Positions 27,464 through 47,557 of a stretch of 64,000 bases of DNA are shown piece after piece (positions within the stretch are counted from its first letter, which is position 1; every line of letters starts with the position of its first letter). Below the pieces are notes generated by a model that saw only the letters and a program-made list of their open reading frames with translations, was not told the origin of the DNA and did not search any database. A program made the translations under genes and the position numbers. The DNA is from Acidithrix ferrooxidans (GTDB lineage: Bacteria > Actinomycetota > Acidimicrobiia > Acidimicrobiales > Acidimicrobiaceae): assembly GCF_000949295.1 (NCBI RefSeq), contig NZ_JXYS01000031.1, positions 1-64,000 on the forward strand, written 5' to 3'.

Positions 27464-28069
27464 ATGTCAATTATTTTGAGAGGAAGTCGGATAATGTTAC
27501 GTCCCCTGCGTGACACCGATTTCGACAGGTGGAACGAAGTACGAGTTCGATGCGGTGATTGGCTTACCCAATGGGAGCCGCTACCCCCAGAGGGTTGGGG
27601 TGACCCAAACGGCAAGCGACTCTATCAATCCCGTTGCGTCGCCCGGGAACAGGAGAGTCGCCTTGGCAGCGCCTATGCCTTTGGCGTATTCCTTGAAGAC
27701 AACTTTATCGGTGAAGCAAATCTTTCTGGGATTCAACGCGGTCCAGTGCAAACAGCCAACATCGGATACTGGATCGACAAAGAACGCGCCGGCAAAGGAT
27801 ATATCCCTGAGGCGGTAGCGGTAATCTTCAAATTCGCATTTGAAGATCTAGGTCTCCATAGAATCGCGATCTCCATAGTTCCCCGAAATGAACCAAGTCA
27901 CGGAGTTATAACAAAATTGGGCATAAGACATGAGGGTATTGCTGTTAGATATATTGAGATTAACGGCGCATGGGAAGACCACGATATCTTTGCAATCACA
28001 GTTGAGGAATGGATTGAGAGGCGGAGATTTTTCATGGATAACTTCATTTTGAGGACCCCGCACCGATAA
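27464..28069 (+). CDS. GNAT N-acetyltransferase, RimJ/RimL type
   Basis: A 201-residue GNAT protein like RimJ, the alanine N-acetyltransferase for ribosomal protein uS5. ILRGSRIMLRPLRDTDFDRW opens the fold; NIGYWIDKERAGKGYIPEAVAVIFKFAFEDLGLHRIAISIVPRNEPSHGVITKLG contains the acetyl-CoA loop (RAGKGY in place of Q/RxxGxG/A). Target unknown. It is divergent from coxS and 50 bp before the DUF1707 gene. It starts ATG with only a weak upstream AACCTTAACTG. Confidence 0.88.
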   Translation: MSIILRGSRIMLRPLRDTDFDRWNEVRVRCGDWLTQWEPLPPEGWGDPNGKRLYQSRCVAREQESRLGSAYAFGVFLEDNFIGEANLSGIQRGPVQTANIGYWIDKERAGKGYIPEAVAVIFKFAFEDLGLHRIAISIVPRNEPSHGVITKLGIRHEGIAVRYIEINGAWEDHDIFAITVEEWIERRRFFMDNFILRTPHR

Positions 28070-45470: not shown

Positions 45471-46442
45471 TCATGAAAGGTTTTCTCCACCAAAGATATC
45501 CGAGACGGAGGTATCCTCAAAGACTGCGCCAATAGCTGCCGCTATTACTTGGGCGACCGAGAGCACCTCCAACTTGGCGATCCTCCTCTCAGGAAGAAGG
45601 GGAAGGGTGTTGGTAATTACAACCTTAGAAATTGGCGACTCTTCGAGGCGCTTAGTCGCTGGATCGCTCAAAATGCCATGCGTAGCCATCGCCCAAACTT
45701 CAGCTGCTCCTTGGCTTATCAACAACTCGGCTGCAGCGCAGATAGTTCCTGCAGTATCGATCATGTCGTCGATAATAACGCAGCGTTTACCTGCAACATC
45801 CCCAACGACATCAAGTGCCTCCACAACATTGGCTTTGCCACGAGGTCGTCTCTTGTGCACAAATGCAAGTTCCATGTCCAAATAGAGCGAAAAGCGAGAA
45901 GCAACCTTTACACGACCAGCATCGGGAGCCACGATCACGGTATCGGCGGTGTGGTTGGCTTTCAAATAGTCAATCAATACCGGCATCGCAGTCAAATGAT
46001 CAACTGGACCATCAAAGAACCCCTGGATCTGACCGGAATGCAGATCTAAAGTTATAATCCTGTCAGCCCCCGCAGTGGCTAGAACGTCAGCCACCAATTT
46101 GGCCGTGATTGGCTCACGACCCGAGGCCTTTCGGTCTTGCCTTGAGTAGCCATAGTATGGGCAGACCGCCGTAATTCGCTTTGCTGAGGCCCTCTTAGCG
46201 GCATCAATCATATTCAATTGTTCAAAGATCGCCGAATTTACCGGGTAGGCGTGTGATTGGATGATAAAGATATCTTTACCTCTAATCGACTCGCCAAAGC
46301 GACAGTAGATCTCCCCGTCTGCAAATTCCCTTAGGTCAACTTGACCCAAGGGTACATCGAGGTGGAGCGCAACTTCGGCAGCGAGTTCTGGGTGCGACCT
46401 ACCTGAATAGATCTCAAGACGTTTACGAGGGACTAATTCCAC
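45471..46442 (-). CDS. prs: Ribose-phosphate pyrophosphokinase (PRPP synthase)
   Basis: A 323-residue class I PRPP synthase (ribose 5-phosphate plus ATP to PRPP plus AMP). ANLYSG-like LEIYSGRSHPELA, DGEIYCRFGESIRGKDIFIIQS, CPYYGYSRQDRK, DLHSGQIQGFFDGPVDHLTA, VVAPDAGRVKVA and the PRPP loop CVIIDDMIDTAGTI are all present. The GTG at 46442 lies 2 bp after the glmU stop. PRPP feeds nucleotide, His and Trp synthesis and NAD salvage (pncB in this window). Confidence 0.97.
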   Translation of the reverse strand: MELVPRKRLEIYSGRSHPELAAEVALHLDVPLGQVDLREFADGEIYCRFGESIRGKDIFIIQSHAYPVNSAIFEQLNMIDAAKRASAKRITAVCPYYGYSRQDRKASGREPITAKLVADVLATAGADRIITLDLHSGQIQGFFDGPVDHLTAMPVLIDYLKANHTADTVIVAPDAGRVKVASRFSLYLDMELAFVHKRRPRGKANVVEALDVVGDVAGKRCVIIDDMIDTAGTICAAAELLISQGAAEVWAMATHGILSDPATKRLEESPISKVVITNTLPLLPERRIAKLEVLSVAQVIAAAIGAVFEDTSVSDIFGGENLS

Positions 46443-46444
46443 AT

Positions 46445-47557
46445 TTACTCCAAAACTACAAACGATCCACTTTTTGACGAATCGTCGATCTTTACACCTG
46501 ATCGAAGCACCGCATAGGGTCCAACAATAGCATCTTCACCGACCCGACAACCTTCAAGGTCCGATCTCACAACCTTAGCGCCATCTTGGATCACCGAGTC
46601 GCTAATACGTACCTCGGGACCAATCTCAGCACCTCGGCCCACCGTCGTTTGACCAATTAAAAATGTACCTGGCCAAATTGTCGTATCTTGGCCGATCTCT
46701 ACAGTGGAATCTATATAAATGCTGTTCGGGTCCACCAAGTTTACCCCTTTGAGCATGAAGGAGGCATTGATTCGCTCTCGCATCTTCGCCTCTGCACTAG
46801 CGAGTTGACGGCGATCATTTACGCCCAAGGCTTCATCTGGGTCAGAAATCTCGTATCCACTTACATGGTATCCCGCCTTAGCAAGAATCTCCACAACGTC
46901 AGTAAGGTAATACTCGCCTTGTACATTTGACGGATTCAGCCGACGCAGCGCCGGAGAAAGCACATCCAAGTTAGCCACATAGATCGACGAATTTACATAA
47001 GTACAGTCTCGCTCTTGGATTGTCGCATCCTTGTGCTCAACGATCCTGAGCACCTTTTCGTCCTTACCAAAGATCACCCTTCCGTAACCGCTGGGATCCA
47101 GAAGATCGGTATAACTCACGCTAAGCGCAGAATTATCTCGTACGTGACTAGCAAATATAGCCTCGATGGTCTCGGCGCGAATTAACGGCGTATCACCGGG
47201 AACCACAAGAACCATAGGTGGCGCGTCGGTATCAAATGCTATCGGGTCTGGCAAGGCTGTCATGGCAGTTGCCAGAGCGTCGCCCGTCCCTCGCTGAGCC
47301 TTTTGTTCGACGAACTCTATATGCATTCCGGCGGGAGCCAGCCTTAGTATGGAGTTCCTTACAACATCGGCACGAAAGCCCACGACGACAACCACGTCGG
47401 TTATGCCTGCCTTTAGAATCTCCTCTAAGATATGCAGGACCATAGGCTTACCGCAGATACGAACTAGCGGCTTGGGACGCGACGACTTCATTCGCGTGCC
47501 TTCTCCTGCCGCCATGATGACTCCAAAACGTTTGCGCACTTTAGTTTTGTCTTGCAT
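46445..47557 (-). CDS. glmU: GlmU-like UDP-GlcNAc pyrophosphorylase lacking the acetyltransferase half
   Basis: A 370-residue protein from the ATG at 47557 (frame open to 47581). The N-terminal uridyltransferase domain is complete: GVIMAAGEGTRMKSSRPKPLVRICGKPMV, QRGTGDALATA, VPGDTPLI, and EYYLTDVVEILAKAG. The left-handed beta-helix begins (about 265) but stops at SGSFVVLE, where normal GlmU proteins (about 450-490 residues) continue with the acetyl-CoA/glucosamine-phosphate site. The catalytic His, Asn and Lys that follow are missing. No frame continues it, because prs begins 2 bp later. So UTP transfer is likely, GlcN-1-P acetylation is not. Confidence 0.88.
   Translation of the reverse strand: MQDKTKVRKRFGVIMAAGEGTRMKSSRPKPLVRICGKPMVLHILEEILKAGITDVVVVVGFRADVVRNSILRLAPAGMHIEFVEQKAQRGTGDALATAMTALPDPIAFDTDAPPMVLVVPGDTPLIRAETIEAIFASHVRDNSALSVSYTDLLDPSGYGRVIFGKDEKVLRIVEHKDATIQERDCTYVNSSIYVANLDVLSPALRRLNPSNVQGEYYLTDVVEILAKAGYHVSGYEISDPDEALGVNDRRQLASAEAKMRERINASFMLKGVNLVDPNSIYIDSTVEIGQDTTIWPGTFLIGQTTVGRGAEIGPEVRISDSVIQDGAKVVRSDLEGCRVGEDAIVGPYAVLRSGVKIDDSSKSGSFVVLE

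Follow-up and report, generated by a model that had tools for sequence, protein, structure and literature searches.

GlmU is the textbook bifunctional enzyme. Model bacteria cannot do without it, drug development has taken it as a target, and models and annotation assume both of its halves. The window analysed here, a 64,000-nucleotide stretch of Acidithrix ferrooxidans DNA, encodes a GlmU that stops where full-length relatives carry on—a locus that raises the questions of whether the shortened form is natural, how widely it occurs, and which enzyme would supply the acetyltransferase activity that it lacks.

The truncated GlmU of Acidithrix ferrooxidans

The features at the locus, all on the minus strand (which the preliminary description of this DNA had not given for the GlmU reading frame), are as follows:

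46445..47557, minus: truncated glmU, ATG start, 370 aa, read as a monofunctional UDP-GlcNAc pyrophosphorylase
47581, minus: alternative TTG start of glmU, upstream of the ATG, which would give 378 aa
46862..47524, minus: complete nucleotidyltransferase domain of GlmU, residues 12-232, from the PF00483 match and the alignment with Mycobacterium tuberculosis GlmU
46448..46702, minus: left-handed beta-helix stub of GlmU (residues 286-370) that lacks the catalytic region of the acetyltransferase, from PF00132 matches and the alignment
46445..46447, minus: glmU stop codon, at a point where full-length GlmUs carry on in the alignment
45471..46442, minus: prs, with GTG as start codon; only 2 bp separate it from the glmU stop, which leaves no space for a glmU remnant

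Residues 13-368 align with M. tuberculosis GlmU, and the translated chain closes with SGSFVVLE, just ahead of the acetyltransferase catalytic residues; in the alignment this end falls on the G-T-F-V-E-x-K of full-length GlmUs, and the rest is gone. We take the catalytic residues to be K, H, N and K, with the chain ending at or before the first of them. Of the 452 positions of TIGR01173, the alignment likewise reaches none beyond 345; the whole-protein score of 340.9 bits lies under the cut-off of 366.85. Both structural claims of the preliminary description, that the protein stops before the acetyltransferase active site and that prs follows 2 bp behind it with no remnant between, are thus confirmed. 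What the protein shares with bifunctional GlmU (TIGR01173 and the M. tuberculosis and E. coli structures) is a complete nucleotidyltransferase domain with its motifs (79.1 bits to PF00483, cut-off 21.2) and the start of the beta-helix; it differs in having no acetyltransferase beta-helix with catalytic residues and in scoring under the family cut-off. Among solved structures, 1fwy is a 331-residue chain of E. coli GlmU that ends before the acetyltransferase part. The Acidithrix protein has, very probably, a single function, that of a UDP-GlcNAc pyrophosphorylase, an activity predicted from its sequence.

Truncation across the order and the phylum

The genome is a draft in 183 contigs, a state in which an assembly or sequencing error in this contig might have shortened the gene; relatives refute this explanation, to which we give practically no credence. 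Among 60 genomes at the level of the source organism's order (very probably Acidimicrobiales), 56 had a GlmU match, the Acidithrix genome included, as did all 39 that were ≥90% complete and ≤5% contaminated. We read 50 loci to the stop, from 50 of the 56 matching genomes, and in all of them the stop falls at a similar point, 338-377 codons past the start of the match, except that L017 is a 5'-cut fragment of 278 codons with its end intact; the next open reading frame was recognisable as prs in 47 of the 50. In a phylum sample of 296 genomes, by comparison, 253 scored above the TIGR01173 cut-off. Since all 50 order loci end alike and most of the phylum is full-length, the truncation is not a local defect, and these genomes, as read, show that the GlmU acetyltransferase region was lost naturally across the order.

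Within the phylum sample, 24 of 27 order genomes matched GlmU (E 3.4e-77 to 2.2e-109), and seven of eight sister-order genomes did so at E <= 5.5e-150, with spans that reach profile position 447-450 for four of them among the rows listed; in the eighth, G244, GlmU runs off the contig beyond the truncation point. The stop comes earlier than usual in the order genome G176. Three order genomes (G196, G260 and G291) gave no GlmU match at 1e-60, which reflects either an assembly gap or a further replaced step. These three are 97-98% complete and contain weak nucleotidyltransferase matches only (best 1.0e-20), together with both of the acetyltransferases called A and B below.

Shortened or altered GlmUs also occur in two further families. 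In family f37, GlmU ends early with prs next to it, for example in G078, G104, G178, G208, G226, G236 and G198; truncated loci of this family are L229, L230, L231, L232, L233, L234 and L238, and the family has full-length GlmUs as well. In f58, the GlmU of G232 stops still earlier, and those at L235 (G100) and L237 (G282) have an internal deletion of the catalytic coils with the last coil kept, in genomes where B is absent. The extent of the truncation through the order, and its recurrence in other groups, were beyond the reach of the preliminary description, which had only the window to go on.

Search for a separate acetyltransferase

With GlmU truncated and no second GlmU, full-length or otherwise, found in the genome (97.98% complete, 183 contigs), another enzyme must carry out the acetylation. 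The preliminary description had proposed this and, as its other option, a GlmU that makes UDP-sugars only from ready-made GlcNAc-1-P. Of the two, the first is the proposal that gains support: glmS and glmM are both present in the genome over their cut-offs, close together, so that glucosamine phosphate can be made de novo and a ready-made supply of GlcNAc-1-P is not required. It is accordingly very improbable that the cell lives on salvaged GlcNAc with no de novo acetylation and a GlmU that handles only salvage-derived GlcNAc-1-P; the truncated enzyme as such needs only GlcNAc-1-P and UTP, but the two genes, matched in 58 of 60 (glmS) and 60 of 60 (glmM) order-level genomes, would be pointless for pure salvage.

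A stand-alone hexapeptide acetyltransferase, the replacement that the preliminary description had in mind, was not recovered: the genome has no unassigned one over the PF00132 cut-off, and the present candidate is a GNAT instead. Besides GlmU, the PF00132 proteins over that cut-off are CysE (236.4 bits, cut-off 210.65), DapD (NF008808, 318.9, cut-off 204), RmlA-long (442.6, cut-off 320.25), a gamma-carbonic-anhydrase-like protein, which reaches 147.6 with its best NCBIfam model (cut-off 250), and two proteins resembling mannose-1-P guanylyltransferases but under their cut-off. Further matches in contigs C27 and C90 are weak. An 838-aa protein at L165:2818-5331 (minus; G000:C87) joins a mannose-1-P guanylyltransferase-like half to a phosphoglucosamine-mutase-like half, both below cut-offs.

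The glmM/glmS neighbourhoods were read in the Acidithrix genome and in L101, of 20 fetched. No open reading frame of ≥90 aa lies between glmM and glmS in the Acidithrix genome, leaving no GNAT there. In 18 of the 60 order-level genomes, none of them of family f1, the frame that holds the GlmS match is unusually long (812-1614 codons) and the match stays under the GlmS cut-off; the long GlmS of L101:4834-8187 (minus) was considered as a carrier of an acetyltransferase domain and rejected, as Pfam gives one SIS and a glutamine-amidotransferase domain only.

Four order genomes contain 64 matches to the GNAT family PF00583, of which 50 were extracted and compared and 14 lay outside the comparison. 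Reciprocal best matches common to all four were a homologue of MshD (weak in G049) and two proteins that we call A and B, while RimI links three of the four; RimI and MshD were rejected as candidates, being named by NCBIfam over their cut-offs. The window has a GNAT of its own at 27587-27922, in a frame of 204 codons; a GNAT of G046 shares 56% identity with it over 180 residues. The two remaining proteins are:

G000:C12:55243-55764, plus: GNAT A, 174 aa, phosphinothricin/ArsN1/YncA-like
G000:C26:32671-33117, plus: GNAT B, 149 aa, PF00583, outside the window

Of 45 order genomes, 42 have protein A, with identities of 44-68% among the nearly complete copies, a distribution that would suit the missing acetyltransferase. 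We nevertheless consider A quite unlikely to be that enzyme: three B-bearing genomes of the order (G016, G038 and G053) lack it, it is present in a sister-order genome with a full-length GlmU (G075), and its matches among solved structures are of the phosphinothricin/YncA type, none of those at E <= 0.001 bearing the name GNA1. At E <= 1e-18, it occurs in one of eight sister-order genomes (G075) and weakly in 6 of 27 others; of the NCBIfam models, ArsN1a/b fit it best, with scores under their cut-offs. Neither A nor B was found in G078 and G104 of family f37.

Protein B as candidate and its place among known routes

The likeliest explanation, and one that we regard as having good though not overwhelming support, is that GlmU lost its acetyltransferase half early in this order and now works solely as a UDP-GlcNAc pyrophosphorylase, and that the separate GNAT B performs the acetylation. 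B, which probably takes over the missing step, would use acetyl-CoA as donor and acetylate a glucosamine phosphate on its amino group, with GlcN-6-P or GlcN-1-P as the predicted substrate. The steps could run as in eukaryotes, through GlmS, B (GlcN-6-P to GlcNAc-6-P), GlmM and GlmU, or else through GlmS, GlmM, B (acting on GlcN-1-P) and GlmU.

Across 80 genomes, B was found at E <= 1e-12 in 44 of 45 from the order and in none of 35 others, among them the sister-order genome G075 with its full-length GlmU. The order genome G015 counts against B, as it has a truncated GlmU and no B match. Nor was B found in five f37/f58 genomes (G078, G104, G100, G232 and G282) in which GlmU is truncated, internally deleted or broken; B is thus not the only possible answer, and these two families must use something other than B. 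This need in f37 and f58, together with the 14 GNAT matches outside the comparison, speaks for an alternative in which the acetylating enzyme is another one—a GNAT that is not among the 50 compared, CysE or DapD in a moonlighting role, or a protein of unrelated fold—and B is a marker of the order with some other substrate. We judge this unlikely, since B recurs with a second, separate truncation.

That second truncation came to light through B: species genomes scanned with its alignment gave at least 539 confirmed relatives. The best 80 of these include, besides Acidimicrobiia, 12 loci of Actinomycetaceae (in Trueperella, Arcanobacterium, Actinomyces and Schaalia) and five from large-genome actinomycetes. 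The B of order genome G291 is identical to the protein of an Acidimicrobiaceae record, which underlies the assignment of the order to Acidimicrobiales; matches of four further order genomes carry no label finer than Actinomycetes or actinobacterium. GlmU was tested in 30 of the 80 genomes, which were picked for having B and hence test the state of GlmU given B, not the reverse; 25 of the 30 match GlmU at 1e-40. Eleven of the 12 Actinomycetaceae match, one being without a match, and all eleven GlmUs are truncated, at 321-346 codons from the match start with prs 33-164 bp behind. All five large-genome actinomycetes have a full-length GlmU, which counts against B. In the other 13 genomes, Acidimicrobiia-like or other, some of which repeat earlier ones, GlmU is truncated in eight, cut by the contig end in one and without a match in four.

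A tree of 73 uridyltransferase domains, built by quick search, places 28 order rows in one group with G075 nested inside (support 83), and the 11 Actinomycetaceae rows in a clade (support 97) among full-length GlmUs of Actinomycetes. A single origin of the truncations in the order and in Actinomycetaceae is rejected when the two groups are constrained together (AU p 1.26e-64). The G075 locus, L362, is a sister-order, full-length GlmU and either the nearest outgroup or a transfer. In the tree of B itself (108 rows), the Actinomycetaceae copies form one group (support 75) and the five copies from genomes with full-length GlmU another (90); its deep branches lack resolution and fit equally a history in which B passed from one truncated clade to the other and one in which it did not.

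Counted over the 61 tree rows for which both traits are known, GlmU is truncated or altered with B in 36, full-length without B in 15, truncated or altered without B in 5 and full-length with B in 5; without the rows selected for B, the corresponding counts are 17, 15, 5 and 0. The tree holds only two supported independent contrasts, with which a sign test cannot reach significance, and the link between B and truncation is therefore an association by clade. The neighbourhoods examined also count against B in one respect, in that B does not lie next to glmS, glmM or glmU. It is directly upstream of a citrate-synthase-like gene in G017, about 1.2 kb upstream of one in the Acidithrix genome, and behind an acetate-kinase-like gene in the Arcanobacterium loci L259, L286 and L299; with these genes named from a reading of their sequences, the neighbours of B are ones of acetyl-CoA metabolism, not hexosamine genes.

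We also compared B with glucosamine-phosphate acetyltransferases of known structure. B scores 42.2 bits to PF00583 (cut-off 20.7), and its profile matches 61 solved-structure sequences. The two best, 1z4e and 2dxq, are GNATs without known function; the third, 3fb3, is listed as an N-acetyltransferase of Trypanosoma brucei and is presumably GNA1. Five of the 61 bear the name of a glucosamine-phosphate (or 'glucose-6-phosphate') acetyltransferase (4ag7, 3t90, 3cxp, 2huz and 2vez), and a further match, 6yug, is titled Cryptosporidium parvum GNA1. The predicted model of B (pLDDT 95, pTM 0.88) superimposes on yeast GNA1 (1i1d) with Z 17.6 and an rmsd of 1.9 over 136 residues, which, like the domain match, places B in the GNAT fold; the score is tied with those of many other GNATs, and fold alone thus cannot fix the substrate of B.

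In C. elegans GNA1, as described in PMC3413214, Glu104 and Asp105 hold the sugar O3 and O4, the backbone of Asp105 and Val106 holds the acetyl group, Tyr149 holds the thiolate, and Lys136 and Arg164 hold the phosphate. Their counterparts E84, D85, V86 and Y132 are present in 108 of 108 copies of B, a count to be read with the caution that the scan patterns for part of the sample contain IEDVV or motif parts, the 29 copies from the 80-genome test being the fairer sample. R146, which matches Arg164 by its position near the C-terminus, is present in 107 of 108 (one gap). The phosphate Lys position is not conserved in B, in which R122, R125 and R140 are invariant, and in place of the active-site Cys of GNA1 all 108 copies have Ser121; the aligned T. 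brucei chain 3fb3 likewise has Ser there. A Glu-Asp pair stands at the same place in GNAT A. Outside the scan patterns, and outside the large-genome group, T142 is kept in 103 of 103 copies and N143 in 100 of 103, against one of five each in the copies from genomes with full-length GlmU. This pattern fits a substrate site that is kept where the step depends on B, with numbers small and the five copies forming one clade.

A wider reading, which we offer tentatively and hold to be possible rather than probable, is that Actinomycetota lost the GlmU acetyltransferase at least twice and now depend on a GNAT recruited as a bacterial GNA1—an enzyme that would act on GlcN-6-P, with GlmM converting GlcNAc-6-P and the monofunctional GlmU finishing the route—and so make a peptidoglycan precursor in the eukaryotic order of steps. 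As in the eukaryotic GNA1-AGM1-UAP1 route, acetyltransfer and pyrophosphorylase would reside on separate proteins; here, by contrast, a GlmU-type protein would be the pyrophosphorylase, and the mutase scores over the cut-off of the bacterial GlmM family. Like C. elegans GNA1 as PMC3413214 presents it, the putative acetyltransferase B keeps Glu-Asp-Val, Tyr and the C-terminal Arg, and it differs from GNA1 in missing the conserved Lys and Cys. In PMC5838249, the authors' analysis has a GNAT family taking up the GNA1 role separately in Apicomplexa, whose GNA1 was found by drawing up a list of GNATs and trying them in yeast with a temperature-sensitive gna1; that enzyme is eukaryotic and shown experimentally, whereas B is bacterial and its role is a predicted one. 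A GlmU without its C-terminus, the acetyltransferase domain naturally absent, is mentioned for Chlorobaculum limnaeum, one organism of another phylum, in PMC7725333, whose passages on it propose no replacement enzyme. In the open-licence literature, we found no published truncated GlmU from the clades described here and no GNAT replacing the GlmU acetyltransferase.

Should B prove to be the missing acetyltransferase, the present order of environmental Actinomycetota and the Actinomycetaceae, with their animal and human opportunists, would be unresponsive to inhibitors of the GlmU acetyltransferase and dependent on a different small enzyme. A pathway gap would be filled in many genomes, and the two groups would provide a natural case in which half of a bifunctional enzyme has been replaced by an unrelated one.
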